This document shows, piece after piece, positions 6,361 to 52,704 of a DNA stretch of 64,000 bases. The translations under genes were made by a program, and so were the position numbers. This DNA comes from Oxalobacteraceae bacterium (GTDB lineage Bacteria; Pseudomonadota; Gammaproteobacteria; Burkholderiales; Burkholderiaceae_D), in contig OMID01000060.1 in the NCBI GenBank assembly GCA_900299005.1, positions 19,790 to 83,789 on the forward strand. Direction: 5' to 3'. The notes beneath the pieces were generated by a model. The model was given only the letters and a program-made list of their open reading frames with translations, searched no databases and had not been told where the DNA came from. Every line of letters starts with the position of its first letter. Within the stretch, counting starts at the first letter, position 1.

Positions 6361-8499
6361 ATGACGAAGACCTTGGTTTGCTGGCGCCGTGCCATCACGG
6401 GCCTGCTGTTGGTGGCAAGTGCTGTGGGTCATGCAGTCACGCTGAAAAAAGCCGATGTTGATCAGTACCTGTCGAAGCAGTACCTGGTCGGCGACATTAA
6501 CCCGAATGTTCCGGTCTGGCCCTTGTTCGAACGTCAGCCCACGACAGAGAATGAAAAACCCCAGCTGATCGGCTATGCGTTCGAGTCTGTTGATTTCGAG
6601 CCAGTGCGCGGCTATGGCGGCAAGCCGATTAATATTCTCGTGGCGATAGACACCCAGGGCAATTTCCTCTTGTCCAGGTTGCTCGAGCATCGCGAGCCCC
6701 TGTTTCGGTCCGAGGTGGGCATTGCCAAACTGACGGAATTCGCTTCCCAATATGTGGGCATCACCGTCAGGCATGAGACACATTTGCAGGGCTTTCGTGC
6801 GAAGACATCGCATGATGACAAGCGTGCCTACTTGCATGGCGTGCAGGCGGGCACGGTGTCGGCCAAGGCAATCGACCGCACCATTTTGCAATCGGCAGCC
6901 TCGGTCGCGCTCGCCCATGAGGAGGCTGCCCGAGCAGGAACGATCATCGGCGAGGGCGATGCGGTTACCCTCACCAAGGGTAATTTACGAAACGTCGAGG
7001 TCAAGCCGCTGACATGGGATCAGCTCCTCTCGCGCCGCATGGTCGAGCCAATGTCACTGACGCGCAGACAGATCGAAAAAGCATTTGCCGGTACCCGTGC
7101 CGCTGGCGCAGACAAGCTGGCCGCTACCCAACCCGACGAGGTAGCCTTGCAATTCCATGTCGCGCTGGCCAGCATTCCCCAGATCGGGCGCAATGTGCTG
7201 GGCGAGGAGGGATGGCGGCTGCTGGTGGCCAACATGCGCGATAGTCAGGCCCTGGTGATCAGCGAAAGCGGGCCCTTGTACAAGATGATGTACGAGAGCC
7301 AGCGCATCGTGGACGATCAGCCCTTCGTGCTAAAACAAGATGGCAAGGTCGTATCACTGCGCGCCATCGCCTACGATAAAGATCTCGTCGTGCCGGGCTA
7401 CCCGACGACGACGCGGGTCCATGTGCTGATTGTTGACAGCGCAACGCCACTGGATCCTTCAAGGCCCTTCGATCTTGCTCTGCGATTCGGTCGTCGTTAC
7501 GGGTCATTCGCGCATCAGGTTGCGTACACGGAGTTTGCCATGCCCTATGAGTTCTATGGCTGGCGAAGGACATTATCGCGATGGATGGACGCCGACTGGG
7601 TCGATGCGTGGAGCAAGCGCAGTGCCGAGATTGCGGTGCTGCTGGCAGGACTGATCGTGCTCAGTGTTGCGCTGGTTCGCCAACGCGTGACTGCGCACAG
7701 CGCACGACGGCTGAAGATCTTCCGCATTGCCTATTTGCTGTTCACGCTGGGCTTTATCGGCTGGTTCGCGCAGGGGCAATTAAGTATCGTGAACATCACC
7801 GCCTCCCTGGAGGCACTCTCGACAGGCAATGACCTCAGTTTCCTGCTGGCTGATCCGATGACGGTGATCCTCTGGATCTTTGTGGGTATGACCTTGCTCG
7901 TGTGGGGGCGCGGCACCTTTTGTGGCTGGCTGTGTCCCTTCGGGGCATTCCAGGAGCTTGTCAGCCTGATCGTGCGGCGCATCGGAATAAGGCCGCGCCG
8001 CCTGCGCGGGGCATGGGACCGCTCTCTCAAATGGATCAAATACCTGGTGCTGGGGGCAGTGCTTGCGACGATCTGGCTGGCGCCAACTTCCACCGAGCTG
8101 GTGGTCGAGGTCGAACCCTTCAAGACAGCTATCAGCCTGTATTTCGTCCGAGATTGGCCCTATGTCGTCTGGGCGGTCGGTCTCTTGGCGCTGAGTGTCT
8201 TCGTCTATCGCGGATATTGCCGGTATATTTGCCCACTGGGCGCCGCGCTTGCGGCCCTGAATCCGCTGCGTCGCTGGGGCTGGATTGCGCGCCGAGATGC
8301 CTGCGGCAAGCCGTGCCAGACTTGCCGTCATCGCTGCGAGTATCAATCGATCGCGCCGTCCGGCAAAGTGAGCTACAGCGAATGCTTTCAGTGCCTCGAT
8401 TGTGTCGCGATTTATCGCGACGACACCCAATGCCTGCCCCTGATCCAGGAGCGTAAGCGCAAGGTCATCCACCTTTACGAAGAAAGGGCTGCGGCATGA
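6361..8499 (+). CDS. NosR/NirI-like membrane flavin and iron-sulfur electron-transfer protein
   Basis: 712 residues. Order: signal-like N-terminus (1-25), periplasmic FMN-binding domain to about residue 185 (YAFESVDFEPVRGYGGKPI), a long periplasmic stretch, then several membrane helices from about 425. Two cytoplasmic polyferredoxin anchors follow, CGWLCPFG and CRYICPLG, and a cysteine-rich tail ending ECFQCLDCVAIY. This is the NosR layout; NosR moves electrons across the membrane to periplasmic enzymes. No nosZ or other nos gene is present, and the usual SGAT flavin-attachment motif reads AGTVSAKA (163-170). The ATG overlaps nothing; GGGGGAC precedes it. Its stop overlaps the start of apbE by 4 bp, so the partner FMN transferase is coexpressed. 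A second homologue is at 25054. Confidence 0.85.
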   Translation: MTKTLVCWRRAITGLLLVASAVGHAVTLKKADVDQYLSKQYLVGDINPNVPVWPLFERQPTTENEKPQLIGYAFESVDFEPVRGYGGKPINILVAIDTQGNFLLSRLLEHREPLFRSEVGIAKLTEFASQYVGITVRHETHLQGFRAKTSHDDKRAYLHGVQAGTVSAKAIDRTILQSAASVALAHEEAARAGTIIGEGDAVTLTKGNLRNVEVKPLTWDQLLSRRMVEPMSLTRRQIEKAFAGTRAAGADKLAATQPDEVALQFHVALASIPQIGRNVLGEEGWRLLVANMRDSQALVISESGPLYKMMYESQRIVDDQPFVLKQDGKVVSLRAIAYDKDLVVPGYPTTTRVHVLIVDSATPLDPSRPFDLALRFGRRYGSFAHQVAYTEFAMPYEFYGWRRTLSRWMDADWVDAWSKRSAEIAVLLAGLIVLSVALVRQRVTAHSARRLKIFRIAYLLFTLGFIGWFAQGQLSIVNITASLEALSTGNDLSFLLADPMTVILWIFVGMTLLVWGRGTFCGWLCPFGAFQELVSLIVRRIGIRPRRLRGAWDRSLKWIKYLVLGAVLATIWLAPTSTELVVEVEPFKTAISLYFVRDWPYVVWAVGLLALSVFVYRGYCRYICPLGAALAALNPLRRWGWIARRDACGKPCQTCRHRCEYQSIAPSGKVSYSECFQCLDCVAIYRDDTQCLPLIQERKRKVIHLYEERAAA

Positions 8500-9500
8500 A
8501 TCCGACTCGACGACAGTATCTCCGACTGGGCATGGGGCTGGGATTTCTGGCCGCCTGCCCCACGTTGTCGGTCGCGGCCGATGCGTCCGAGCGTGACCTG
8601 GCGGCCCGACTTAGCTGGCGCGAGCGCTCGCTCCTGGGCTTTGGCACTACGCTCTGGCTGCGCGCTGGTGACCTGAGTGCGGACAAGGCCGAGGCCGCGC
8701 TAGACAAGTCCGTGCAACTGCTTCGTCAGACCGAATCTCAGATGAGTCTGTTTGATGAGCACAGTGAGATCAGCCGTTTGAATCGCGCAAGTGAACTGCG
8801 CAAACCCTCGCGTGAGCTGCTGCAGGTCATCGCGCTGTCGTCGACGATTTCCTCGGCCAGCCACGGGACTTTCGACATCACAATGCAGCCGTTGTGGACT
8901 GTGTGGGCGCGCGCGCAGGCCGAGTCGCGCCTGCCAACCCAGCGCGAGCTTCAGGCCGCGCGAGCTCGCGTGAACTGGCAGGTGCTCAAACATGCCACGA
9001 ATTCTCTTGTGTTACCCAAGGGGATGTCGCTTTCTCTGAATGGCATTGCACAGGGGTTTGCTGCCGATGCACTGCGTACGCAGATGCAGGCCATGGGCAT
9101 CCGGCATGCGATGCTCGATACGGGCGAGACCGCCGTGTTGGGTGAGGCGCCCGGAGGGGTGCCGTGGCGTTTCGGCATCGAAGATGTACATCGGCCAGAC
9201 TCTGCACCAGTGCAGGCGGCAACTGTGCCTGATGGCTATGCGATAGCAACCTCCTCCGATGCGCATACCACCTTCACCGAGGATCGCGTGCACCATCACA
9301 TTCTCGATCCACGCACGGGTGATTCACCTGGCTGGTGGTCTTCCGTCACGGTGATGGCCAAAAGTGCGGCGCTCGCTGATGGTCTGACCAAGGTATTTTT
9401 CATGTTGCCTCCGTCGCAGGTGCAGCAGGCCGCCAAGCGCTGGGGTGTGGCAGTGATCTTGCAGGACAAGCAGGGCCGATGGCGTCGGTTTGCCGCCTGA
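8496..9500 (+). CDS. apbE: FAD:protein FMN transferase (ApbE family)
   Basis: 334 residues. ApbE transfers FMN covalently onto Thr/Ser of target proteins in the periplasm. The start carries a twin-arginine-like signal (TRRQYLRLGMGLGFLA). Family landmarks are visible: MSLFDEHSEISRLNR, THGTFDIT-like SHGTFDITMQPLW, SLNGIAQGFAAD, the DTGETAVLGE segment in place of the usual DxGG, and HHILDPRTGDSPGW. The start codon overlaps the stop of the NosR-like gene (ATGA), so that protein is the probable flavinylation target. The end-of-domain Mg-binding Asp/Thr region (ALADGLTKVFFML) is conserved. Confidence 0.9.
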   Translation: MNPTRRQYLRLGMGLGFLAACPTLSVAADASERDLAARLSWRERSLLGFGTTLWLRAGDLSADKAEAALDKSVQLLRQTESQMSLFDEHSEISRLNRASELRKPSRELLQVIALSSTISSASHGTFDITMQPLWTVWARAQAESRLPTQRELQAARARVNWQVLKHATNSLVLPKGMSLSLNGIAQGFAADALRTQMQAMGIRHAMLDTGETAVLGEAPGGVPWRFGIEDVHRPDSAPVQAATVPDGYAIATSSDAHTTFTEDRVHHHILDPRTGDSPGWWSSVTVMAKSAALADGLTKVFFMLPPSQVQQAAKRWGVAVILQDKQGRWRRFAA

Positions 9501-9621
9501 ACTGCGGCCCACTGCCGACTGCCACGGGGCAGCCCGTGGGGGATGCGCTGTCGTTTCTGATCCGTCCGAAGACTGATTCGGCGAGCGCTGATTCAGCACC
9601 GAGTGCGCAGGGGAGTTCGTG

Positions 9622-10023
9622 ATGAAGGCCGTTGTGCTTTCTCTCGCGCTTTGCTTAACCGGTCTCGTGACAACGACCGCGCACGCCGCATGGAAATTAA
9701 TCGACTTCACAGATGAAGCGGCGTTCTATATCGATGATTTCTTCGAGCCCGGGCCTCAGCCCCGGATCTGGGAATTGGTCGACTACCGTGTTCCCAATGA
9801 GTTCGGCAGCCAGTCGGCCAGGATATTGTGGGAGGTGGATTGCACGCGCAGCGTCGTGCGCACGCTGAGTTTCAGTTCACATCCTCATCGCATGGGTATC
9901 GGCGAACCCATCAGCATCGACAACCGGGTCGGTGAGTGGGCGCTGCCACCGGAATACTCGCCTCAGGAGGCGGTGTTCATCCTCGCCTGCGGCTTCGAAC
10001 CTGCTGCCGGCCCCAAGACCTGA
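9622..10023 (+). CDS. Small secreted protein, surface-adhesin E-like
   Basis: 133 residues with a clear Sec signal (MKAVVLSLALCLTGLVTTTAHA). The mature part (WKLIDFTDEAAFYIDDFF, then WELVDYRVP, SARILWEVDC and a second Cys near residue 126) has the pattern of the adhesin-E-like family of small periplasmic or surface proteins: a Trp start, an Asp-rich strand, and two cysteines likely to form a disulfide. No enzymatic residues are recognised. The ATG at 9622 is preferred over GTG at 9619 because GGGGAG lies just upstream. It follows apbE by about 120 bp and may be transcribed alone. Confidence 0.6.
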   Translation: MKAVVLSLALCLTGLVTTTAHAAWKLIDFTDEAAFYIDDFFEPGPQPRIWELVDYRVPNEFGSQSARILWEVDCTRSVVRTLSFSSHPHRMGIGEPISIDNRVGEWALPPEYSPQEAVFILACGFEPAAGPKT

Positions 10024-10187
10024 GCATGGGCTGACTTATCGATTTAGTAAATCGATAAAATTTTTCATCATGACTGGCCAGTCGCTGCGCACTTCTGTCC
10101 GCTTTTTGCGCATTTACCAGATAGAATGCCCGGTCGAGAAAATCTATAACAAAAATAAACGCCCGGCCATGGCGTAGGGGAGCCTGT

Positions 10188-10871
10188 TTGAAGATCAGTT
10201 TTCTACGACTGATGCCGTCCAGCCCGCACAGAAAGATCGAACCCATCCTGTTCGAGTGGTTCACGTTGATCGGCATGTTCCTGTTCGCCGCCTGGCTGCT
10301 CGGTCTCAAGGGGGTCTGGCAGTTGCTGCTGCAATCGGACCCCACCGGCATTACCTTCGTCATCATCGTTATTTTTTGTGTCGCGACAATCTGGTGCGGC
10401 ATGCGCAGCCGCGAGCTGGATCGTCAGCGAGAGAGTCTGGAGCATCAGATCGCCAACTCGGCAAGCGCGCCTGCGGAGTACTGCTGGTCTCATGCCTACT
10501 GGGAGGCACTGAGGTCCAATCCACGCGATTCAGGCGCCCCCATGGACCTGCTGACCGAGAAGACGCACGGTTGCCACAGCACCGCCTGGTGGGTGAACGG
10601 CCTGCAGCTGAAGCTTGGGCTGCTGGGCAAGGTGATCGGCTTTTCGATGCTGGCTATGCAGATCGGCCATATGCAAAGTTTTGACCAATCACAGGCGCAG
10701 GAGATGTTGCGCGATTTGACCACGGGCCTCGGCGTCGCGCTGCTGACCACGATGGTGGGTCTGGTTGCGAACATCTTGCTGGGCCTGCAGCTGACGCGGC
10801 TGGATCGGTTTGCAGATGATCTGGTGTCGCGTGCACAGACCCAGGGACTGAAGATCAAGGCATCGGAGTGA
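10188..10871 (+). CDS. MotA/TolQ/ExbB-like proton channel protein
   Basis: 227 residues starting with TTG, supported by AGGGGAGCC 6 bp upstream and lack of an alternative ATG until residue 9. Hydrophobic segments lie at about 20-45, 55-72, 140-160 and 180-205; the last two flank a region (GLLGKVIGFSMLAMQIG then TTGLGVALLTTMVGLVANIL) that strongly resembles the TolQ/ExbB/MotA channel helices. Such proteins form a proton channel with a TolR/ExbD partner, here the next gene. It begins a tight four-gene operon. The load driven by this motor is unknown, since neither TonB nor Tol genes adjoin. Confidence 0.7.
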   Translation: MKISFLRLMPSSPHRKIEPILFEWFTLIGMFLFAAWLLGLKGVWQLLLQSDPTGITFVIIVIFCVATIWCGMRSRELDRQRESLEHQIANSASAPAEYCWSHAYWEALRSNPRDSGAPMDLLTEKTHGCHSTAWWVNGLQLKLGLLGKVIGFSMLAMQIGHMQSFDQSQAQEMLRDLTTGLGVALLTTMVGLVANILLGLQLTRLDRFADDLVSRAQTQGLKIKASE

Positions 10872-10881
10872 GACAAGGCTG

Positions 10882-11514
10882 ATGCGTGATCGTCGCAAAT
10901 CCCGGGAGCCGGAGGTCGACCCAATGTATGACATGTTGTTCAACATGCTCATTGCATTCGTGTTTTGCTTCATCATTGCCTTCATTTCGATCAATCCCAA
11001 GGCGCAGAAGAGTGGCGACATCCCCGCAAAGGCAGAGTTCATCATCACGCTGAGCTGGCCGGACAATGACCCGAACGATCTCGATCTCTGGACCCAAGGT
11101 CCGTCGGGGGAGGTCGTCTGGTTCCGCAATCGCGAAGCCGGGCTCATGCACCTAGACCGCGATGATCGCGGTAGTTCGAACAACACCATCATGGTCAACG
11201 GCAAGAAGCTCGTGAACCCGCTGCGGCAAGAGGTGACCACGATACGCAGCATCGTTCCCGGCGAGTATGTGGCGAATGTTCACTACTACGAAACCAAGGA
11301 CCTCGATCCGGGTGAGCCCAAGTCCGGCAGGCCGGTCGAGGCCACGCTAACGGTCATCAAGGTGAACCCCAAGGCCGAGGTCGTGTTTTATGGGCAGGCG
11401 ACTCTGGAGAGTCGCGGCAAGGAAACCACCATGGTGCGGTTTACCGTGGAGCCCAACGGTTCAGTCTCGAATGTCAACACCATTCCCAAGTCTTTAGTGA
11501 AGTCAATCACATGA
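10882..11514 (+). CDS. TolR/ExbD-like protein with a large periplasmic beta domain
   Basis: 210 residues. A short cytoplasmic start is followed by one membrane helix (MLFNMLIAFVFCFIIAFISI, about 18-37), matching ExbD/TolR topology. The C-terminal domain is not the usual short ExbD fold: it begins LSWPDNDPNDLDLWTQGPSGE, a DxNDLDLW pattern I associate with YfaP/DUF2135-type domains, and continues with strands ending VEATLTVIKV. It lies 10 bp after the TolQ-like gene and overlaps the next gene by 4 bp, so it is probably its motor partner. The expected membrane Asp of ExbD is not evident inside the helix (D12 and D17 lie just before it), a point of doubt. Confidence 0.6.
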   Translation: MRDRRKSREPEVDPMYDMLFNMLIAFVFCFIIAFISINPKAQKSGDIPAKAEFIITLSWPDNDPNDLDLWTQGPSGEVVWFRNREAGLMHLDRDDRGSSNNTIMVNGKKLVNPLRQEVTTIRSIVPGEYVANVHYYETKDLDPGEPKSGRPVEATLTVIKVNPKAEVVFYGQATLESRGKETTMVRFTVEPNGSVSNVNTIPKSLVKSIT

Positions 11515-12008
11515 CCCTTACCCTGATCATCGCATTCGCGATCTTTGTTTTTCTGTTTGCGTTGGCCATCGTATTCTCGGGTTGGCCACGCTGGCTCAAG
11601 GGCGTGCTGACACTGGGTGTCTGCGCCTTTTATTTTTTTGGTTATCAGGCAGTATTCAGCCTGCTCGGCAATCCCAGTGTGGATCCCTTACCAGCGCGCT
11701 TTCTGCTGATCGCTGCTGTCGTCGAGGAGCCAAGGCCCAAGTATGCGGGCGCCCTCTATCTCTGGGTGACGCCCATCGAGGAGGGCAAGCAAGGACTTGA
11801 GCCACGCGCCTACAAGCTGCCTTACATGCGCGCACTGCACGAAAAAATCAATGAGGGAATGCGCAAGGGGCGCCAGGGCATTAGTCAGATGGGCACCGCC
11901 GAACCCAGAGCGGGCACCGGCAAGGGACCTAGCTGGCTTAATCCCGGCAAGGATGAGCAGGAGGTGAAGATTGTTGATCTGCCCGTGCCGCAAGTCCCGG
12001 AAAAATAA
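11511..12008 (+). CDS. Membrane protein of unknown function in the TolQR-like operon
   Basis: 165 residues. Two hydrophobic segments (about 3-22 and 28-52) are followed by a soluble tail with a conserved-looking block RPKYAGALYLWVTPIEEGKQGLE and a Gly/Pro-rich end. I do not recognise the family. The ATGA overlap with the TolR-like gene and the one-base gap to the next gene show translational coupling. It probably belongs to the same membrane complex. Confidence 0.6.
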   Translation: MTLTLIIAFAIFVFLFALAIVFSGWPRWLKGVLTLGVCAFYFFGYQAVFSLLGNPSVDPLPARFLLIAAVVEEPRPKYAGALYLWVTPIEEGKQGLEPRAYKLPYMRALHEKINEGMRKGRQGISQMGTAEPRAGTGKGPSWLNPGKDEQEVKIVDLPVPQVPEK

Positions 12009-12009
12009 G

Positions 12010-12723
12010 ATGCGACGACTGCTCTTTTCCCTGCTAATGATGTGCCTGCTGGCGGGTTGCGACAAGCCGGCGCAAGACCATCCTTTTTTTCCGCTTGAGT
12101 CAGGTAGAAGCTGGACTTACAAGGTCGAGATTGCTTTTGATGATCCTGATGCGCATCTCGACAGCTACCTGCTCACGCTCACTAACCGTGGGCGGGTGGA
12201 GCTAAACGGCAAAGAGGCCTGGCGCCGTCGTAGCGACACGGGCAATGAATACTGGCTGCGTACCGACGAGCAGGGTGTCTATCGCGTGGCCAGCCGTGGT
12301 CCGGCCGGCAAAGAAGCGATGCTCGATCCCGGACCGCGCATTGTCTTGCCGGCCAAACTCAGCAAAGAAGCGAAATGGTCGACGACCACCGTGCCCTATT
12401 TTCTTAAACGGCGCAACGAGTGGCCACCGGAATTCAAATACGTCGATAAATATCGCAACCTCACCATGAATTACACGATCGAAGCATTGGATCAGAAGGT
12501 GACCACACCCTCAGGCGCGTATAGCGGCTGTTTGATGGTCAAGGGTATTGCCGAGATCAACGTTTGGGTCGAGAGCGACATGACCTACAAGGAAGTACCC
12601 ATGGAAAATGTCGAATGGTATTGCCCGGGCGTCGGCCTGGTGCAATTGGAACGTCGCGAGCCGACGACAGCGCGTTTCTTTCAAGGTGGCGTCATGCGCA
12701 TGGTGCTGGTAAAGACAGAATGA
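12010..12723 (+). CDS. Outer-membrane or periplasmic lipoprotein, unknown function
   Basis: 237 residues from ATG 12010, which places a lipobox LLAGC at residues 16-20 (MRRLLFSLLMMCLLAGCDK). Position +2 is Asp, which in enterobacteria signals retention in the inner membrane; whether that holds here is unknown. The mature part has repeated beta-strand patterns (SGRSWTYKVE, LNGKEAWRRR, TPSGAYSGCLMVKG, WYCPGVGLVQLE) like bacterial lipoproteins that begin PLESGRSW. It ends the operon; the palindromic CCTGCGGCCGCAGG plus TTTT at 12737-12754 may terminate it. Confidence 0.65.
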   Translation: MRRLLFSLLMMCLLAGCDKPAQDHPFFPLESGRSWTYKVEIAFDDPDAHLDSYLLTLTNRGRVELNGKEAWRRRSDTGNEYWLRTDEQGVYRVASRGPAGKEAMLDPGPRIVLPAKLSKEAKWSTTTVPYFLKRRNEWPPEFKYVDKYRNLTMNYTIEALDQKVTTPSGAYSGCLMVKGIAEINVWVESDMTYKEVPMENVEWYCPGVGLVQLERREPTTARFFQGGVMRMVLVKTE

Positions 12724-13428: not shown

Positions 13429-15108
13429 ATGAAATTCTCAACCAAGCTCATGACTTCTGCAGTGATGCTGGCAGCCGCCCAGCTCGCCGCTGCGAATAAT
13501 TGGGGTGTCTATGGTGGTGATTCGGGTAATACGCGATACAGCACTGCCAATCAGGTTACGCCCGCAAACGTAAAAAATTTGCAGGTCAAGTGGGCACTGC
13601 AATTAGGCACCAACCGCTCGCAGGAATCCGTGCCTATCGTGGTGGGCGATACGCTGTATGTGACCTCTTCCTATGGCCCGAAAAATGTGATCGCGGTCAA
13701 CGCGAAGACGGGCCAAATGAAGTGGAAGTATCAGCCGGAAATTCCAAAGAACGTTGATCAGTTCGCTTGCTGCGACGTGGACAACCGCGGCGTGGCATAC
13801 GCGAATGGCAAAATTTTCTTCGGCCGTCTTGATGCAAAAGTGACCGCCCTCGATGCCAAGACTGGTAAAGAGCTGTGGACCTCCACCGTCGTGGACTACA
13901 CACAGGGTTCGGCCATCACCTCCCCACCGACCATCGTCAAGAATTTGGTCGTCACTGGTTTCGCTGGTGGCGAGTACGGTGTAAGGGGTGCGATCGTCGC
14001 CTATGATCAGAACACCGGTAAAGAAGTGTGGCGCACGCATACCGTGCCCCTGCAGGGTGAAAAGGGTGGCGACACCTGGAAGGGCGACTCCGGCAAGCAC
14101 GGTGGCGCAGCTGCCTGGCTGATTGGTTCCTACGACCCCAAGCTGAACCTGGTCTACTACGGAACATCGAACCCGGCTCCCTGGTCTGCGGCGGTACGTG
14201 GTAATGACAGCTCCGACATCGGCAAGTACTCCAATCTTTACTCCGCATCGGTGCTGGCCATCAACGGCGATACAGGCGCCATTCAGTGGCACTATCAATT
14301 CACACCGCATGATGCATGGGACTATGACGGCGTGAACGAACTGGTCTTTGCTGATCTGCCCATCGATGGCAAGACCACGCCGGTGATCATGCAGGCTAAC
14401 CGTAATGGCTTCTTCTACGTGCTTGATCGCGCCAATGGCAAGCTGCTCTCCGCCAAGCCTTTCGTGGATGGCGTGAACTGGGCCACCGGTATCGACTTGA
14501 AGACCGGCATGCCGATCGAAGCTCCCGGCAACAAGTTCCGTCCTGGTCTCAAGCGCAAGGCTGTCAATGTCTGTCCTAACCTCATCGGCGGAAAGAACTG
14601 GCAGAGCATGAGCTACAACAAGGACACCGGCCTGGTGTACATCCCGACCACCAACCTCTGCATGGACATGGAAGCAGTTCAGGAGGATTACAAGCGTGGT
14701 CAGTTCTACCTGTCGGTTAACTTCGATCTGGGCAAAATGGGCCCCGGCGGTCACGGTGGTGGACTGAAGGCCTGGGATCCGGTCAAGCAGAAGGAAGCCT
14801 GGTTCTTCAAAGAAGAACTGCCGCTCAACGGTGGCACCATGACTACCTCAACCGGTCTGGTATTTGCGGGCGATGTGAAGGGTATCTTCCGTGCCTTTGA
14901 CGCCAAAACCGGCAAGATCCTGTGGGAGTTCAACACAGGTTCTGGCATCAGCGCCGCGCCGATGACTTACGTCATCGATGGCAAGCAGTATGTCGCTGTG
15001 GTGTCTGGACGCTCGCAGTCGATTCCTGCGTTCTTCGGAGAGGTTGGCCAGAAGATCGTGGACGCCAGCGCTGAGGGTGGCACGCTGTTCGTTTTTGCTG
15101 TTAATTAA
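13429..15108 (+). CDS. PQQ-dependent alcohol dehydrogenase, lanthanide type (XoxF-like), copy 1
   Basis: 559 residues with a Sec signal (1-22). An eight-bladed propeller is shown by repeated tryptophan-docking motifs such as NAKTGQMKW, DAKTGKELW and DQNTGKEVW. Active-site features: vicinal C114-C115 (FACCDVDNRG), the metal-ligand Glu E182 (GGEYGVRG), Asn in GTSNPAPW, and D298-Y299-D300 (WDYDGVN). The second Asp is the extra ligand that separates lanthanide-dependent enzymes from calcium MxaF, which has Ala there. It oxidises a primary alcohol in the periplasm; methanol, ethanol or another substrate cannot be decided by eye. A binding-protein/cytochrome fusion follows 15 bp downstream as probable electron acceptor. 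Confidence 0.9.
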   Translation: MKFSTKLMTSAVMLAAAQLAAANNWGVYGGDSGNTRYSTANQVTPANVKNLQVKWALQLGTNRSQESVPIVVGDTLYVTSSYGPKNVIAVNAKTGQMKWKYQPEIPKNVDQFACCDVDNRGVAYANGKIFFGRLDAKVTALDAKTGKELWTSTVVDYTQGSAITSPPTIVKNLVVTGFAGGEYGVRGAIVAYDQNTGKEVWRTHTVPLQGEKGGDTWKGDSGKHGGAAAWLIGSYDPKLNLVYYGTSNPAPWSAAVRGNDSSDIGKYSNLYSASVLAINGDTGAIQWHYQFTPHDAWDYDGVNELVFADLPIDGKTTPVIMQANRNGFFYVLDRANGKLLSAKPFVDGVNWATGIDLKTGMPIEAPGNKFRPGLKRKAVNVCPNLIGGKNWQSMSYNKDTGLVYIPTTNLCMDMEAVQEDYKRGQFYLSVNFDLGKMGPGGHGGGLKAWDPVKQKEAWFFKEELPLNGGTMTTSTGLVFAGDVKGIFRAFDAKTGKILWEFNTGSGISAAPMTYVIDGKQYVAVVSGRSQSIPAFFGEVGQKIVDASAEGGTLFVFAVN

Positions 15109-15123
15109 TTCGGAGTCTGAGTA

Positions 15124-16305
15124 ATGCCCAAGTTGCTTGTTACGCCTGGCAGGTTCGCGTTGAAGACTGCTGTTGTATTCGCTGGCCTTCTGTCGATGTC
15201 GGTGGCTTTTGCCGACACGCTGAAAGTCTGCTCCGATCCTGATAATTTGCCTTTCAGTAAATCTGAAGGGTCGGAAAAAGGTCTTTATGTCGAGCTTGCA
15301 GAACTGGTAGGCAAGCACTTGGGCAGCTCCGTAGAGTATGTCTGGTGGTTGACGCATAATCAGCGACGCGCCATCCGAAACACCATGGATGGCTGCGATG
15401 CGTATTTTGCTCTTCCCGCAACGGCTGACTACAAAGTCAGAGGCGCGGACAAGAGCCGTGCTTTCATGGATGTTGGTTTCGCTCTGGTTGGACCGGCATC
15501 TTTTACATTGAGATCTCTGGAAGATCTCAAGGGCAAGCGTGTTGGTGTTTTGCATGGATCGCCGCCTCATATCTTGCTTTCTGCCGAGCCGGGCTACGAA
15601 CCAAGGAATTACAAGTTTCAGGAAGAAGTGTTCGACGCTCTGGCCAAAGGCGAACTGGATCTCGCAGTCCTATGGGGCCCGAGTGCCGGCTACGAAAATC
15701 AGAGCCGACTGCAGAATCGCTGGACTATCACACCGGTTGCTGGTTTTGGCCTGAACGGGCAAGTTGCCGTGGCTGTCTCCAAGGGCAAGACCGAGTTGAG
15801 AGACAAGATTGATCATGCGCTCACCGAGCTGCAGCCCGAAATCAAGCAGCTGCAAAAGAAATATGGTTTTCCGCAGGCGGTGCCCGTCGTTCTGGATGCC
15901 AAGGGCTCGTGGAACACTATCATTGAACAAGTCGCTGGCGGCACAGCGCAAGCGAATGTAAAGAAGTTCAGCGACAAAGGCGCGGCGAAGATGACGCTGG
16001 CTGCTGCCGAAAAAACCGATCTGCAGTCGAACATGATCAAGGTCGCTGATGTCGACATGGAAGAAATCAAGGGTATGTTCAACAGCCGCTGCTCACATTG
16101 CCACGGTCAGAATGGCGCCAGCCCGCAGTCGGAACGAGATCTGCGCAAGCTGTCCAAGCGCTACGACGATAAATGGCAGGATGTTGCGCACACCACGATT
16201 ACCAATGGCCGCCCGGAACTGGGTATGCCGACGTGGGGCGGTACGCTATCTGATGCCGACATCCGCAATATCATCAAATTTCTGGGGACTATCCAGCGCA
16301 AGTAA
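15124..16305 (+). CDS. Fusion of XoxJ-like periplasmic binding protein and cytochrome c
   Basis: 393 residues with a signal peptide (to about residue 30, SVAFA). Residues 32-270 are a type II solute-binding fold of the MxaJ/XoxJ kind (LKVCSDPDNLPFS, GVLHGSPPH, DLAVLWGPSAGY). Residues 310-390 are a c-type cytochrome: haem site CSHCH at 323-327 and a likely axial Met in GMPTWG near 368. XoxJ is thought to help activate XoxF and XoxG is its cytochrome acceptor; normally they are separate genes. Here one polypeptide could do both. There is no stop or frameshift between the parts. It is cotranscribed with the dehydrogenase upstream and ends before a strong terminator. Confidence 0.85.
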   Translation: MPKLLVTPGRFALKTAVVFAGLLSMSVAFADTLKVCSDPDNLPFSKSEGSEKGLYVELAELVGKHLGSSVEYVWWLTHNQRRAIRNTMDGCDAYFALPATADYKVRGADKSRAFMDVGFALVGPASFTLRSLEDLKGKRVGVLHGSPPHILLSAEPGYEPRNYKFQEEVFDALAKGELDLAVLWGPSAGYENQSRLQNRWTITPVAGFGLNGQVAVAVSKGKTELRDKIDHALTELQPEIKQLQKKYGFPQAVPVVLDAKGSWNTIIEQVAGGTAQANVKKFSDKGAAKMTLAAAEKTDLQSNMIKVADVDMEEIKGMFNSRCSHCHGQNGASPQSERDLRKLSKRYDDKWQDVAHTTITNGRPELGMPTWGGTLSDADIRNIIKFLGTIQRK

Positions 16306-16328: not shown

Positions 16329-16363
16329 GCCCGCCGCGCCGTAAGGCCCGGCGGGATTTTTTT
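16329..16363 (+). terminator. Rho-independent terminator after the dehydrogenase/cytochrome operon
   Basis: A stem of CCCGCCG against CGGCGGG with an internal CGCC/GGC helix, followed by ATTTTTTT. It closes the 13429-16305 operon. Confidence 0.85.
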
Positions 16364-24780: not shown

Positions 24781-25053
24781 TCCTTGTTCTGGCAGTGAAT
24801 AGGCTTTCACAGGCAACCATCACGCACTGCGCTCACCCGCAGATTTTTCTTCCTACTGTCAGACAACCCTCAGGTTTCATTTCGACCCGAAGATTGCTGT
24901 TCAAATTGATAATCCGCTTCGCATCTAGCCCAGGCTTGAGTGCGAAATGTGCCCGGCTTCGTGGTAGATTGCATCTGCCTTTGCAGCAAACGAATAACCA
25001 AAAAAGGGCCGGCCGTCACCTGCAGTAGCGACCGTGCTTGTGGGGGAGGGTCT

Positions 25054-27282
25054 GTGCGCGCATTCGCGGTGTTGTGCTTGAGCCTGTTTAGCGCCTTGAG
25101 CGTCTCTTCCGATGCATGCGCCGGCTTGCTGAAGCGCGACGAGGTCGACAAACTGCTAGATAGCCAGTTCATCGTCGGCGAGATGCAGGCCGACATGCCG
25201 GTCTATCCTCTGATGTTGAAAAATCCTGCCGGCGGCAAGCCTGAGCTCAAGGGGTACGCCTTCGAGTCGCTCGACTTTGAGCCGGTGCGTGGGTATAGCG
25301 GCAAGCCGATCGATGTGCTGGTCGCCATGGATCTGACCGGCAGCTTCATCGACCTGAGGCTGGTCGATCACAAAGAGCCTTTTTTCAACAACCCGACCGG
25401 CACGGCGCGACTTGGCACGTTTACGGCGCAATACACGGATCTCTCGCTGCGCCATACGGTGCGCATTCATGACTGGCGCGCAGCGACCAAGCGTGACGAT
25501 CAGTCGGCTGATCTGCAGGGCGTCAATCACGGCACCGTCACGACCAAAGCGATCGACCGATCAATCTTTGCCTCGGCAGCCAAAGTCGCGGTGGCCAAGC
25601 TTGACCCGAGCATTGCGGCTGCGGCAGCGGCGCGTCGTCGCAGCACGCGAGAGAGCTTTCGACCATTGGACTGGGACGATTTGCTGGCACGCGGGATGGT
25701 GCGCACCACCGTCATCAGACTCGATGATATCGAGCGTGCCTATGCGAATATCAACGAACCCGGAGGCGGCAAACTGGAAGGCCTTGCGCGCGATGCACCT
25801 GTGCTGCGTTTTCAGGTGGCGCTGCTTGGCATTCCCTCGATTGGCCGTAACTTGCTTGATGACGAAGGTTGGCGCTATCTGAACACCAGCCGTCGCAAAT
25901 CGCAGGCGCTGCTGGTGACCGAGAGCGGCCCGCTGGCGGCGGTGTCTGATGCCCTGTTGCGGCCAGCCCTGCCCGAAGCGCGCAGCACGGGCGATCCGCG
26001 TCTTGCTGCGCAGGACGCTCAAGCACCGATCGACCGCCCGCCTTCAGACAATGCAATTAGTGCGCTGCGGGTGCCCGATGAACTGCCATTCGTGCTGACC
26101 CAAAACGGCAAACCCCTGAAATTCAGCAGCATTGGCTATGACAAGCGCCTCAAAGTGCCTGGGTATCCGAAATCCACCAAGGCGTATTTTCTGGTGATCG
26201 ACAAGGCCACGCCGCTGGATCCGGCTCAGCCTTTTGATCTCTCATTCCGGCTGGGCCGGCGATTTGGCACCAACCAGATCATGAATCATGTCGAACAGCG
26301 CCAATTTCCTCTGGTGTATGACTTCCACGGCTGGCGGGCAACCCTGTACGACTGGTGGGATACGGATTTTTCTTCCATCGACTGGATCAAGGCATGGCAG
26401 TCACGCTGGCTGGATATCGCTGCGCTAATCATCGGACTGGGCCTACTCACCGTGGCCTTGTTCGCTCAGCGCCGGATCACGGCCAGTACACGCACACTCA
26501 CGATCTTCCGCACGGCCTATCTGATCTTCACACTGGGCTTCATCGGCTGGACTGCACAAGGACAGCTGACCATCATCAACGTGACGGCAGCCCTGGAATC
26601 ACTCAGAGGCGGAGGCGATCTCGGTTTCCTGATGAATGACCCCATGACAGTGATTCTCTGGCTATTCACCGGTGTGACGCTGCTGGTCTGGGGGCGTAGC
26701 ACCTTCTGCGGCTGGCTGTGCCCCTTCGGGGCGATGCAAGAGCTGATCAGCATGATTGCCAATCGCCTTGGCCTTCACCAGCGACGTTTGCGGGCGGCGC
26801 TTGATGCGAAGCTCAAGTGGATCAAATACCTTGTGCTGGCCGTGATCATGGGCTCGGTATTCGTCGCACCGTCATTCTCCGAGCTGGCCGTCAAGGTAGA
26901 ACCTTTCGAGACTGCGATCAGTTTTTATTTCATGCGCGATTGGCCTTATATTGTCTGGGCGGTTCTTTGCCTCGCGTTTGGATTATTTCTTTACCGAGGC
27001 TACTGTCGTTACCTATGCCCACTGGGTGCAGCACTGGCCTGCGTTAATCTGCTGCAGCGATGGCACTGGATCCCGCGCCGTGCCGAGTGCGGAACGCCAT
27101 GTCAGTCCTGCCGGCACCGCTGCGAATATCAGGCGATCACACCTGATGGCAAGATTAATTACAGTGAATGCTTCCAGTGTCTAGATTGCGTGGCAATCTA
27201 CCAGGATGACAAGCGCTGCCTGCCATTGATAGAAGAGCGCAAGCGCCGCGTCATACCCATTCGCAGCACCCAGGCGGCCTGA
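25054..27282 (+). CDS. NosR-like membrane electron-transfer protein, copy 2
   Basis: 742 residues. GTG at 25054 is chosen because GGGGGAGGG ends 5 bp upstream and a Sec signal (RAFAVLCLSLFSALSVSSDACA) begins there; the frame is open farther upstream but without a site. The same order as the 6361 homologue is seen: periplasmic FMN-binding domain (YAFESLDFEPVRGYSGKPI), membrane helices, CGWLCPFG and CRYLCPLG, then CGTPCQSCRHRCEY and ECFQCLDCVAIY. The flavin-attachment region reads HGTVTTKAIDRS, again lacking SGAT. It carries an extra 40-residue Ala/Pro insert near 330 to 370. It is followed by a SorAB-like pair, so exchange of electrons with sulfite oxidation is a reasonable inference. Confidence 0.85.
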   Translation: MRAFAVLCLSLFSALSVSSDACAGLLKRDEVDKLLDSQFIVGEMQADMPVYPLMLKNPAGGKPELKGYAFESLDFEPVRGYSGKPIDVLVAMDLTGSFIDLRLVDHKEPFFNNPTGTARLGTFTAQYTDLSLRHTVRIHDWRAATKRDDQSADLQGVNHGTVTTKAIDRSIFASAAKVAVAKLDPSIAAAAAARRRSTRESFRPLDWDDLLARGMVRTTVIRLDDIERAYANINEPGGGKLEGLARDAPVLRFQVALLGIPSIGRNLLDDEGWRYLNTSRRKSQALLVTESGPLAAVSDALLRPALPEARSTGDPRLAAQDAQAPIDRPPSDNAISALRVPDELPFVLTQNGKPLKFSSIGYDKRLKVPGYPKSTKAYFLVIDKATPLDPAQPFDLSFRLGRRFGTNQIMNHVEQRQFPLVYDFHGWRATLYDWWDTDFSSIDWIKAWQSRWLDIAALIIGLGLLTVALFAQRRITASTRTLTIFRTAYLIFTLGFIGWTAQGQLTIINVTAALESLRGGGDLGFLMNDPMTVILWLFTGVTLLVWGRSTFCGWLCPFGAMQELISMIANRLGLHQRRLRAALDAKLKWIKYLVLAVIMGSVFVAPSFSELAVKVEPFETAISFYFMRDWPYIVWAVLCLAFGLFLYRGYCRYLCPLGAALACVNLLQRWHWIPRRAECGTPCQSCRHRCEYQAITPDGKINYSECFQCLDCVAIYQDDKRCLPLIEERKRRVIPIRSTQAA

Positions 27283-27389: not shown

Positions 27390-28658
27390 ATGAGCAAGAA
27401 GAACAACGCAAACAACCAGAAAAGCGAGGATCTCCTCGACGCGGATATGCGGCGACGAGCTTTATTACTGGGGGGTGCGGGTGCCGCAGCCAGTGCCATG
27501 CTCGCTCCCTATAGCAGCATCGCGCAGGCAGCTACGACCGAAGTCGAACTGCCTTTTGCCAATGGCCGCCGCCAGCTGGTGGCCTATCCGGAAAAGCGAC
27601 CGCTGATCGTGCTCACCTCGCGCCCCCCACAATTGGAAACACCGTTCGACGTATTCAATGAAGGCCTCATTACCCCGAATGATGCGTTCTTCGTTCGCTA
27701 TCATTTATCCGGCATACCCACATCGATCGATGGCGATCGGCATCAGATCAAGATTGGCGGCAAGGCCTGTGGTCGACCCTTCACCATTTCGGTGGCTGAT
27801 CTGCGGCAGCTTTTCCGGCCTGCCGAGATCGTCGCGGTCAATCAATGTTCTGGTAATAGCCGAGGTCATTTCTCGCCCCGAGTCACGGGAGGGCAGCTAT
27901 CGAATGGCGCCATGGGGAATGCGCGCTGGGTCGGCGTGCCGCTCAAAGACGTGCTTGCGCGCGCAGAGATCATGGACAGCGCCCGTCAAGTGGTGTTCAA
28001 TGGACTGGATACCGCGCCATTTGGTGGCGGCGATTTTGTCAAATCGCTGGATATCCATCACGCGATGGATGGCGAAGTCATGCTGGCATATCAGATGAAT
28101 GGCAGCGACCTACCCATGCTTAATGGGTATCCGATCAAGCTCATCGTCCCCGGCTTTTATGGGACCTACTGGATCAAGCATCTATCTGACATCGAGATCG
28201 TCGATAACACCTATGAAGGCTTCTGGATGAAGCCGGCCTATCGCATTCCGGATAACGACTGCGCCTGCGTCGATCCGGGCAAGGCACCGCAGTCCACGCG
28301 TCCGATTGGTCGTTTCGTCGTGCGCTCTTTCATTACTTCGCTGCGTGATGGCGCGCGCATTGCTGCCGGACGCAGTGTCAACGTTCGGGGTATTGCGTTC
28401 GATGGTGGTTCGGGTATTCGCAGTGTTGCCTACTCCACCGATGGCGGCCTGACCTGGCGCGAGGCGGCTCTGGGCCGGGAATTGAGTCGCTACTCATTCA
28501 GAGAATTTACGTTTGGTTTTACGCCTGCAGGCGGCGATTACGACTTGCGGGTTCGCGCCACGGCCCGCTCGGGTGAAACTCAGCCTGACCACGCCAAGTG
28601 GCAACCGGCTGGCTACATGCGCAATGTCATCGAATCTGTGCGCGTCACTGCGGCGTAA
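27390..28658 (+). CDS. Periplasmic sulfite dehydrogenase, molybdenum subunit (SorA-like)
   Basis: 422 residues with a Tat signal (MRRRALLLGGAGAAASAML after a 20-residue leader). The sulfite-oxidase fold follows: the molybdenum-ligand Cys C153 in AVNQCSGNSRGHFSP, GNARWVGVPLKDVL, YPIKLIVPGFYGTYWIKHL and a C-terminal dimerisation domain (GIAFDGGSGIRSVAYSTDGG). SorA oxidises sulfite to sulfate and passes electrons to a cytochrome c. The next gene, 13 bp downstream, is a haem protein of the right size. Other Moco oxidoreductases of this family (SoxC-like) are possible. Confidence 0.87.
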   Translation: MSKKNNANNQKSEDLLDADMRRRALLLGGAGAAASAMLAPYSSIAQAATTEVELPFANGRRQLVAYPEKRPLIVLTSRPPQLETPFDVFNEGLITPNDAFFVRYHLSGIPTSIDGDRHQIKIGGKACGRPFTISVADLRQLFRPAEIVAVNQCSGNSRGHFSPRVTGGQLSNGAMGNARWVGVPLKDVLARAEIMDSARQVVFNGLDTAPFGGGDFVKSLDIHHAMDGEVMLAYQMNGSDLPMLNGYPIKLIVPGFYGTYWIKHLSDIEIVDNTYEGFWMKPAYRIPDNDCACVDPGKAPQSTRPIGRFVVRSFITSLRDGARIAAGRSVNVRGIAFDGGSGIRSVAYSTDGGLTWREAALGRELSRYSFREFTFGFTPAGGDYDLRVRATARSGETQPDHAKWQPAGYMRNVIESVRVTAA

Positions 28659-43269: not shown

Positions 43270-43867
43270 GAAAGAACCGATCTGCTCGGTTCGCTGGCGG
43301 CATCGTCGCCTTACCATCGCCCGAATGAGCCAAATTCACGGCGATAACCCCTCGACCGACAGGGCCAAGTTGATCTCCTACCGGCGGCGCCTTGCATATT
43401 TTGTTAATGCCCTTCTTTTAAATATAAAAACACATTTGCGTGCAGTAGCAGAACGCTGCGCCGCAAAACAGGGCGGCATTTTTGCTGGCAAAGCGCACAT
43501 TTTTCGTCGGATTTACACTAGCTTGCGTCGCTAAGTGATTGATGTGGATGGGCATGATCAGATGGCCCGCTTATTTGGCGCTGCAAAAAAAAAGATGGTC
43601 ACCGATGGCGATTCCTTCCTCGCCTACAGTTCTCCCTGTGCCCATGCGTCACCGGCCCAGGCCAGAGTGCGAGCTTGCCAGAAAAAAAATCAAGGCCAGA
43701 TACAAAAGAATGGCTTGTTTGAATATAGTTTGAAACGTATATTTCATCCGTCACCGTAGTTTCACCGGATTAAATGTTGGTTTCACGGGGCAGGCGACCG
43801 TGGCTGACTGGGTGAGCGGGACTCACTAGAACGATAAAAAGCGTAAGTCTAATTGGAGGAAACAACG
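43270..43867. other. Long leader/intergenic region before PQQ dehydrogenase copy 2
   Basis: About 600 bp with AT-rich patches (43395-43435, 43685-43775). Short frames at 43325 and 43535 have no ribosome site or family pattern and are not called. The promoter for the dehydrogenase is expected here; I could not assign it with confidence. Confidence 0.45.
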
Positions 43868-45613
43868 ATGAAGAATGGTGTCAACACCAAACTGAAGGTA
43901 GTGGCTGGCTCTCTGATGTTGGCCGGTGCCGCAGTCGCCGTCGCGGGCGACGTCACTTGGAACCGTCTCCTGAATGCGCACAACGACCCCAACAACTGGC
44001 TGATGTATCACCAGTCGTTCAATGGTTATCACCATAGCGGACTGGACCAGATCAATACATCGAACGTGAAGAATCTCGGCGTCGCCTGGATTCACACGCC
44101 GAATGCCACCAAGCGTGGTATCCAGTCGTTCCCGCTGGCAGTGGATGGCATCCTGTACTACACCTCTGCTTCGGGCAAGGTGTGGGCACTGGACGGCACC
44201 AACGGCAAAGCCATCTGGAGCTACCAGGCCAAGCTCGACAATGAGCGCGGCGAAGGTACGTTCTACAACCCGTACAACCGTGGTATCGCTATCGGTCACG
44301 GCAAGGTTTACCTTGGCACCGTTGACGGTCGCGTGATCGCGCTCGACCAGAAGACCGGCAAGCCCGTCTGGGACAAGATGGTCATGACCGTCGAGAAGGG
44401 CAACAAGGGCTTTACTGGCGCTCCGCTGGTTGTGAAAGACAAGGTCATTATCGGTTCCAACGGTGGTGAGCTGTCCGGCTGCTGCGGCCCGATCTTCGGC
44501 ATCAACGCCGAGACTGGCGACACCGTATGGCAGTTCGACACCATCGGTGGCGACGAGCGCTCACGTGCCTCCTGGGGCAATGACTCCTGGAAGACTGGTG
44601 GCGGCGGTGGCTGGATGACCGGCCAGTACGATCCCAAGACCAACTCGGTCTGGTGGGGTACTGCAAACCCAGCGCCTGACTACGACTACTCTGGCGACAA
44701 GTGGAAGACCGAGGGCGCACGTCCTGGTGACAACCTCTACAGCTCGTCGGTCGTAGTTCTGGATCCGGACACTGGCAAGCTGAAGTCCTATTTCCAGGAA
44801 ATGCCTCACGATGCCTGGGATTTCGACAGCGCCGTGGGTGAGTTCATGCGCATCTCGAAGAATGGCAAGGACTATGTCGTTCACCCGAACAAGGGCGGCA
44901 TTATCTTCGTCTACAACGGTGCTAACGTCGGCGGTGGCAATAAGCTCGACGTCGAGAACGCCTACATGATCGATGACGGTACCTTCAACTACATCAAAGG
45001 CGTATCGCCCAAGGGTGAGCTGATCGGACGCGTCGATTTCACCGAGGGCAAGTTCCCGAACATGTGCCCCGCGATCGATGGCTCGGTGTCGTGGAATGCC
45101 GGTTCCTACAGCCCCAAAACGGGCCTGATGTACAAGGCCACGCAGCAGTGGTGCTTCGACCTCGAAGTGGTGAAGGCAGATCGTCCGAAGGACTTCTCTG
45201 GCCAGAACTACTTCGGCGCATCGTGGACCGCGACGCATCCGAAGGGCAAGCAGGCGTACGGCACCATTCAGGCACGTGACCCGATCAGCGGCAAGATGGC
45301 ATGGCGCGTCGAGTACAAGTACCCTGTACTCGCTTCGCTGCTCTCGACCAAGGGCGACCTCGTGTTCGTCCCAGGCGCTGATGGCGTATTCCAGGCACTG
45401 GATGCGAAGACCGGCAAGGAACTGTGGAGCCACAACAATGGCCTCGGTCACCACGGTGGCGTGATCTCCTACACCGCGAAGGGCAAGCAGTATGTGGCCG
45501 TCGTGACTGGCTGGGGTAGCCACGTTGCTGGTAACTACGGTCCGCTGTTTGGCTCACCATTCAGCGAAATGCCGACGGATAACGGTCAGCTGATCGTTTT
45601 CGCACTGAAGTAA
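43868..45613 (+). CDS. PQQ-dependent alcohol dehydrogenase, lanthanide type, copy 2
   Basis: 581 residues from ATG 43868, set by TTGGAGGAAACAACG, with a Sec signal (to about residue 27). Propeller docking motifs (GTNGKAIWSYQ, DQKTGKPVWD, NAETGDTVWQ) and the PQQ fold are clear. The metal site has E201 (GGELSG) and D318-F319-D320 (WDFDS), again with the extra lanthanide Asp. The vicinal cysteine pair that stacks on PQQ in methanol dehydrogenase is absent at its usual place (TFYNPYNRG); instead a CC occurs at 205-206 (SGCCGPI). A strong terminator and a c-type cytochrome gene follow, the likely electron acceptor. Substrate unknown. Confidence 0.9.
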   Translation: MKNGVNTKLKVVAGSLMLAGAAVAVAGDVTWNRLLNAHNDPNNWLMYHQSFNGYHHSGLDQINTSNVKNLGVAWIHTPNATKRGIQSFPLAVDGILYYTSASGKVWALDGTNGKAIWSYQAKLDNERGEGTFYNPYNRGIAIGHGKVYLGTVDGRVIALDQKTGKPVWDKMVMTVEKGNKGFTGAPLVVKDKVIIGSNGGELSGCCGPIFGINAETGDTVWQFDTIGGDERSRASWGNDSWKTGGGGGWMTGQYDPKTNSVWWGTANPAPDYDYSGDKWKTEGARPGDNLYSSSVVVLDPDTGKLKSYFQEMPHDAWDFDSAVGEFMRISKNGKDYVVHPNKGGIIFVYNGANVGGGNKLDVENAYMIDDGTFNYIKGVSPKGELIGRVDFTEGKFPNMCPAIDGSVSWNAGSYSPKTGLMYKATQQWCFDLEVVKADRPKDFSGQNYFGASWTATHPKGKQAYGTIQARDPISGKMAWRVEYKYPVLASLLSTKGDLVFVPGADGVFQALDAKTGKELWSHNNGLGHHGGVISYTAKGKQYVAVVTGWGSHVAGNYGPLFGSPFSEMPTDNGQLIVFALK

Positions 45614-45786: not shown

Positions 45787-46116
45787 ATGAGTAACATGTA
45801 TCGCGGCATCAAGGCCTTGGGCCTGGTTGCTATGGCAGGTCTTCTGAACGCCCCCGCATTCGCGCAAGATTCACAGGAAATCTCTCCTGAAGACGCAAAG
45901 AAGCTATTTGCAGCTAGTTGTAGCTGGTGTCATGGAAATTTCGGCATGAAGGCTGGCAAGGGTGGCCCCAAGCTGGCAGGCACGTCCAAAGACGAAGAGG
46001 GTGTTTACAACACCATCGTCAAAGGGCAAGGCGCCATGCCAAGCTTCAAGAACACATTGACGGAAGTCCAGGCGCGCGCACTGGCAAAATACATCAAGTC
46101 GCTGCCAAACGAGTGA
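45787..46116 (+). CDS. Class I cytochrome c, probable acceptor for PQQ dehydrogenase
   Basis: 109 residues with a Sec signal (to AFAQ, about residue 26). One haem site CSWCH (residues 45-49) and a probable axial Met in GAMPSF. Size and pattern fit XoxG/cytochrome cL-type acceptors. It lies 170 bp after a PQQ dehydrogenase on the same strand but beyond a strong terminator, so its level may be set separately. GGAGTTGAA precedes the ATG. Confidence 0.85.
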   Translation: MSNMYRGIKALGLVAMAGLLNAPAFAQDSQEISPEDAKKLFAASCSWCHGNFGMKAGKGGPKLAGTSKDEEGVYNTIVKGQGAMPSFKNTLTEVQARALAKYIKSLPNE

Positions 46117-52116: not shown

Positions 52117-52704
52117 TTACTCCCCCGGCTTCACAGGGGGTGCTGCGATAGCTAGAAACTCTCCCTCCAACGTCAGGGGAATTGCTGGCAATGGGCTTGG
52201 AGCCGGACCACTGACCACTTTGGCTCCATCGAATAAATTGAATTTGGACGCATGGCAGTAGCACGCCAGCACGCTTTCTTTCGACATCCATGTCTTTACA
52301 TCGCAACCCTGGTGCGTGCAGATGCCGGAATAGGCAACGACACCCGACGCGGAGCGCGCGCGGGTCTCGGGGGTCATCTGATCTTCGGGCAGTCGAACCA
52401 GCACGATCTTGTTGAGTCGTGATTCATTCTTGGGCGTGCCGGTCTTGGGATCAAAGGGGAATGCCAGGAAGGGCTTGGCAACGGCCAGATCGGCCACCCG
52501 CAGCGGCGTGAAATTTGCCTCGGCATCGGCATCCACCAGCAGCGTGGGGGAGGTCTGGGCAAACGACTCGGTGGATACGAAAGGCATAGGGGCCACCAGG
52601 CTGGTGGCAACGAGATTCATGACACGTCGGCGATCCGCATCGACCCCGCGGTCAGTTTTTTTGCACCCGCAACCGGCGGGGATGGCGCAGTCTTGATTTT
52701 TCAT
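52117..52704 (-). CDS. Tat-exported Rieske 2Fe-2S protein
   Basis: 195 residues with a twin-arginine signal (DRRRVMNLVATSLVAP, residues 24-39). The cluster site is complete: C129-T-H131 and C148-Y-C150-H151, plus C134 and C150 to form the stabilising disulfide, as in bc1-type Rieske proteins. N-terminal cysteines (DCAIPAGCGCKK) are extra and lie before the signal. It is not next to cytochrome b or c1 genes, so it is probably not the bc1 subunit. It is coded just upstream of a PQQ dehydrogenase and is a candidate electron acceptor. Confidence 0.85.
   Translation of the reverse strand: MKNQDCAIPAGCGCKKTDRGVDADRRRVMNLVATSLVAPMPFVSTESFAQTSPTLLVDADAEANFTPLRVADLAVAKPFLAFPFDPKTGTPKNESRLNKIVLVRLPEDQMTPETRARSASGVVAYSGICTHQGCDVKTWMSKESVLACYCHASKFNLFDGAKVVSGPAPSPLPAIPLTLEGEFLAIAAPPVKPGE

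Follow-up and report, generated by a model that had tools for sequence, protein, structure and literature searches.

A XoxJ-like domain fused to a c6/CcoP-like cytochrome beside a predicted lanthanide-type PQQ dehydrogenase

In lanthanide biology, the functions of XoxJ and MxaJ are still debated. Maturation, regulation and an adaptor function have all been proposed (PMC9728263, PMC12997753), and in M. extorquens XoxJ is required for XoxF function, the loss of xoxJ being equal to the loss of xoxF (PMC7391723). In Methylacidiphilum, XoxF passes its electrons to cytochrome cGJ, which is encoded by xoxG:J, and a separate xoxJ is present besides (PMC8498564, PMC6688271, PMC12235487). The original prediction for the locus described here held that XoxJ and XoxG are normally separate, to which cytochrome cGJ is a known exception.

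We analysed a stretch of 64,000 nucleotides from an Oxalobacteraceae bacterium (contig OMID01000060.1; hereafter, the window), in which a XoxJ-like domain and a cytochrome are encoded as one protein. Like cytochrome cGJ from Methylacidiphilum fumariolicum SolV and its relatives (PMC8498564, PMC6688271), it combines a J-type domain and a monohaem cytochrome in a single periplasmic protein, and its gene adjoins that of a lanthanide-type PQQ dehydrogenase, here a predicted one. In cytochrome cGJ, the cytochrome is XoxG, a cL homologue, and precedes a truncated J domain (an order based on the name xoxG:J and on the description in PMC6688271, not on sequence), and a separate xoxJ exists. In the window, in contrast, a full J domain precedes a c6/CcoP-like cytochrome, the genome has no other J-like gene, and the organism belongs to the Proteobacteria. 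Descent from the cGJ family itself, by a move to the Proteobacteria, would explain why a single protein next to a XoxF-like enzyme unites the same two functional halves. However, the opposite domain order, a cytochrome that is not of the cL type and a genome without the extra xoxJ of Methylacidiphilum already disfavour such a descent, and we consider it very improbable.

A fused XoxG:XoxJ is already known and characterised as cytochrome cGJ, and the J-first order with a c6/CcoP-like cytochrome is a new variant. The original prediction had allowed that the fusion might prove widespread and already characterised: the J-first order is indeed fairly widespread, but the literature searched, which omits most subscription journals, yielded no description of it.

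A J domain and a monohaem cytochrome in one frame

The fusion gene is a single ATG-to-stop frame of 393 codons on the forward strand (15124..16305, stop included). Its 393-aa product contains both domains according to NCBIfam and Pfam (TIGR03871 at residues 33-251, PF13442 at 312-387), which bears out the continuous frame originally predicted. The features of this gene and of its partner enzyme described below lie on the same strand. At the N-terminus, the sequence and a pLDDT below 50 for residues 1-29 suggest a Sec signal peptide (residues ~1-30, MPKLL...SVAFA/DTLK; 15124..15213), and export is also implied by the covalent haem. The MxaJ/XoxJ-type solute-binding domain follows (residues ~31-256; 15214..15891). 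It had been placed at residues 32-270; the domain stands, but its end lies nearer to 251-256, as indicated by TIGR03871 and by the structure model. The linker (residues ~257-310; 15892..16053) is probably disordered, with a pLDDT below 50 for residues 259-309, and is variable in length and poorly conserved in a 17-row alignment of fusions. The C-terminal part is a class I monohaem cytochrome c domain (residues ~311-393; 16054..16302). In the AlphaFold2 model, two structured parts are joined by the very-low-confidence stretch 259-309; with a mean pLDDT of 71 and a pTM of 0.57, this model is of modest confidence and informs on the fusion alone, not on its complex with the enzyme.

The J domain is matched by the NCBIfam model TIGR03871 (MoxJ-like, quinoprotein-dehydrogenase-associated) with E=2.7e-30, at a score of 105.7 bits, about half of the curated cut-off of 212.15 bits, which is thus not reached. 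Its best PDB sequence match is XoxJ 6onp (E=1.9e-27), ahead of amino-acid binders, and 6onp is also among the structural matches (TM 0.75 on target) of the modelled domain, which has a two-lobed solute-binding fold. Cys36 and Cys91 are invariant in the 17-row alignment, and the domain carries the motifs CxDPxNxPFS and LWGPxAG; the motifs CxDPxNxPF, CD and WGP also occur in 6onp. The likeness to XoxJ, MxaJ and PedG (TIGR03871, TIGR03870; 6onp, 5sv6, 9ism) includes homology over the full length, the conserved Cys pair, these motifs and an adjoining PQQ dehydrogenase. Unlike those proteins, the window J domain is joined to a cytochrome, lies under the TIGR03871 cut-off and belongs to a clade of its own. 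The fusion is the sole TIGR03871 match in its genome, in which no other MxaJ/XoxJ-like protein was found.

In amino-acid importers, as in the LAO protein, an Asp binds the amino group of the ligand. In the fusion J domain, the invariant Trp184 aligns with this amino-acid-binding Asp of ordinary binding proteins. No ABC permease or other ABC gene lies beside the fusion gene. A component of an ordinary amino-acid importer is thus rejected, by the missing adjacent ABC genes, the position of every copy beside a dehydrogenase and the replaced Asp. Alternatively, the J domain could act as a sensor or gate, binding a small ligand (the substrate, an aldehyde or another compound) and, by opening and closing, bringing the cytochrome closer to the enzyme or further from it. 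A two-lobed solute-binding fold on a flexible linker would suit this role, but the Trp in place of the binding Asp argues against it and, to our knowledge, no ligand is known for XoxJ or MxaJ. We regard such gating as improbable.

The cytochrome domain is matched by Pfam Cytochrome_CBB3 (PF13442; residues 312-387, 3e-11, above the cut-off). Its haem c attachment motif CSHCH lies exactly where predicted, at residues 323-327 (16090..16104). Together with the distal Met, it forms the class I monohaem pattern of CXXCH plus Met, with C323, C326, H327 and M368 invariant in the 17 fusions. Met368 (16225..16227), in a GMP motif, is the presumed sixth haem ligand and, by analogy with class I cytochromes, likely the distal one. 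The PDB matches of the domain are c6 and CcoP, and its original assignment to XoxG did not hold. The cL model TIGR03872 does not match the fusion, no XoxG/cL structure appears up to E=1 among the best 60 of the 62 PDB matches of the domain, and profile and PDB sequence comparisons gave no significant match to XoxG/MoxG. We therefore reject a XoxG/cL identity. PedF is a weak sequence match only (E=1e-4, far under the cut-off). PedF/ExaB cytochrome c550 and XoxG/cL are functional counterparts, which accept electrons from PQQ dehydrogenases, yet their sequence likeness to the fusion cytochrome is weak or absent.

Recurrence and origin of the fusion

The genome is a draft of 122 contigs, and a misassembly or a lost stop codon could in principle have joined two genes. 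Such a sequencing or assembly join, which had been named as potential counter-evidence, is refuted by 24 distinct intact copies from two classes that span both domains and conserve the haem ligands; its probability is negligible. This number includes the window copy and was obtained after dropping records of identical contigs. Twelve of the copies are from Burkholderiales and 12 from a second class of that phylum, which is probably Alphaproteobacteria. The homologues spanning both domains are 28-85% identical. Named records with the fusion comprise Oxalobacteraceae, a Polynucleobacter-labelled MAG, a Limnohabitans MAG, and other Burkholderiales or Betaproteobacteria MAGs.

At the genus level, seven of 20 sampled genomes carry an intact fusion, and one more an interrupted copy. 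The sample of the order added two further genomes out of 399. In the other class, the fusion was present in five of 399 genomes, and in one of its families in nine of 200, two of which are shared with those five. A plasmid collection contained J domains, but no fused protein that reached 80% coverage of the query. In the interrupted same-genus copy (L031/L119; L119:5604-6602), a TGA lies in the cytochrome part and the remainder is in another frame, which reflects either gene decay or an error in the sequencing of this assembly.

Compared with 51 stand-alone J domains, the fused J domains form one clade (support 98/88) and make up one side of a branch in 100% of the bootstrap trees (all 200). 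For this tree, the interrupted copy L031 was relabelled from "alone" and one very long row was dropped; with L031 as "alone", the one-clade p-AU is 0.006. The single clade of fused J domains fits one origin of the fusion. Tentatively, we propose a single-origin family in which a XoxJ-like domain may serve as a docking subunit that stays permanently on the mature dehydrogenase of lanthanide type, with a tethered acceptor unrelated to cL. This reverse-order fusion would have arisen independently of cytochrome cGJ, so that two lineages would have reached the same solution. Two J-cytochrome fusions of opposite order and with different cytochromes argue that J acts where the dehydrogenase meets its acceptor.

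The partner dehydrogenase and the electron acceptor

Directly upstream of the fusion gene, a PQQ alcohol dehydrogenase of 559 aa is encoded (13429..15108). It is matched by TIGR03075 with 648 bits against a cut-off of 480, and its best PDB hits are PedH 6zcw and XoxF 4mae. Alignment to XoxF 4mae and PedH revealed a lanthanide-type Asp298-x-Asp300 site (14320..14328) and the adjacent Cys114-Cys115 (13768..13773), the presumed disulfide ring next to PQQ. Based on the Asp-x-Asp site, the enzyme is predicted to be of the lanthanide type. In a 34-row tree, three XoxF rows form the sister group of its clade (96/95), with long branches around it. As its identity is nearly equal to XoxF 4mae (45%) and to PedH (46%), we term it XoxF/PedH-like. 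The intergenic gap of 15 nt contains a Shine-Dalgarno-like GGAG (15112..15115), 8 nt before the fusion ATG. A possible intrinsic terminator (16337..16363) could close the two-gene unit; it matches the consensus, and the number of such sites is near the shuffled expectation.

The search for the same fusion beside xoxF-like genes, which the original prediction had called for, confirmed this linkage: all 24 intact fusions lie directly 3' of one dehydrogenase clade, whose members are at least 55% identical to the window enzyme (at locus L004, the contig carries only the C-terminal end of the dehydrogenase). The second lanthanide Asp is present in 14 of the 15 aligned enzymes of the fused clade, as well as in all of L124-L131. 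The exception is L007 (L007:4041-5720), where a dehydrogenase of this clade has a Val in the position of the second, lanthanide-binding Asp (DAWDYVGVNE), perhaps reflecting a change of metal. The window genome also encodes PqqE and five further TIGR03075-like proteins, not all of them above the cut-off. The formaldehyde-activating enzyme Fae, sought in the genome as a sign of methylotrophy, was not found.

With a probability of roughly two thirds, we interpret the fusion as a periplasmic protein dedicated to the dehydrogenase whose gene ends 15 nt upstream; the J domain would dock it to this enzyme and probably help the enzyme mature, while the linker would hold the acceptor cytochrome. The J domain would no longer serve an ABC importer, but bind the enzyme for docking and probably also for maturation. 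The flexible linker of ~50 residues would keep the C-terminal cytochrome at a high local concentration by the enzyme, near the electron exit. There, the cytochrome would accept electrons singly from PQQH2 and hand them to the respiratory chain. This proposal builds on the structure 9ism, which contains MxaJ along with the MDH alpha subunit and both chains of which match the J-enzyme pair of the window, on the need for XoxJ in M. extorquens, on the adaptor and maturation proposals, and on Trp184 at the Asp position. It is favoured by the linkage to one enzyme clade, the cytochrome of the sister clade, the 6onp match, the sole TIGR03871 match, the lack of an adjacent ABC permease, the presence of PqqE and the accepted role of a fused XoxG:J as acceptor for XoxF in Methylacidiphilum. 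The unsettled function of XoxJ, the J score at half of the TIGR03871 cut-off, the modest model, the Val at L007 and a sister clade without a nearby J speak against it.

In the nearest enzyme clade without the fusion, a stand-alone cytochrome directly follows the enzyme gene at 11 of 11 loci. These cytochromes (e.g. L106, L100) are homologous to the C-terminal domain of the fusion (34-47% identical) and occupy the same place after the enzyme gene, but lack a J domain. No J domain was detected near these enzymes in the 7-14 kb stretches of the 11 loci, one of which ends at the cytochrome and another of which is shortened by the contig end. A cytochrome in the same place points to its function as electron acceptor. 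It looks like the constant partner, with J added or, under another rooting, lost. The enzyme tree rejects neither a single fused clade (p-AU 0.265) nor a sister clade that has lost the fusion. Elsewhere, at locus L064, a J gene and then a cytochrome gene, unfused, follow a different dehydrogenase (36% identical), a layout that could be the source arrangement for such a fusion.

The sister clade also bears on a different division of labour, in which J would mainly be a maturation chaperone for inserting PQQ and lanthanide into the apo-enzyme, and the cytochrome would check or oxidise the freshly charged cofactor instead of being a steady acceptor. XoxJ/MxaJ have been proposed to bind the partly folded apo-enzyme and to help insert PQQ and metal (PMC12997753), and the equal effects of losing xoxJ and xoxF in M. 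extorquens (PMC7391723) agree with this. Yet, the sister enzymes keep a cytochrome, and not J, in that position, which suggests that the cytochrome is needed for turnover, and none of the fused loci read has another acceptor gene beside it. We therefore judge a mainly maturing role unlikely.

The original prediction had described the fusion as an acceptor plus chaperone, which couples activation to electron withdrawal. Both ideas stay hypotheses, as the function of XoxJ is itself unsettled in the literature, and sequence cannot separate docking from maturation by the J domain. For the tethered partner, the binding to the enzyme, the passage of electrons, a possible part in inserting metal or PQQ and the kind of substrate are inferences that go beyond the conserved frame, the strict linkage to one dehydrogenase clade and the lanthanide-type site. 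As a natural one-to-one construct, the fusion would allow docking, maturation and electron transfer to be told apart by severing the linker or deleting a domain.

Other genes of the window

No Rfam family was matched in the window. Ahead of the dehydrogenase (9619-12723) lie the genes for an ExbB/MotA-like channel protein (10188-10871), an ExbD-like protein of 210 aa, a membrane protein of 165 aa and a lipoprotein of 250 aa. The order of this ExbB/ExbD-like block is kept in L118, L119 and L007, but the block is not found beside more distant fusions.

Two more PQQ dehydrogenases with the lanthanide-type Asp are encoded in the window (43853-45613 and 50338-52074), both with other residues (F-Y and M-L) in place of the adjacent Cys pair. 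One of them is followed by a stand-alone cytochrome (45787-46116), and beside the other lies a Rieske protein (52117-52704), which could be an electron acceptor of an unusual kind. The window also encodes two NosR-like membrane proteins (6361-9500 and 24940-27282), both scoring far below the NosR cut-off. The first is accompanied by an ApbE flavin transferase, and the second adjoins a SorA-type sulfite dehydrogenase (27390-28658).
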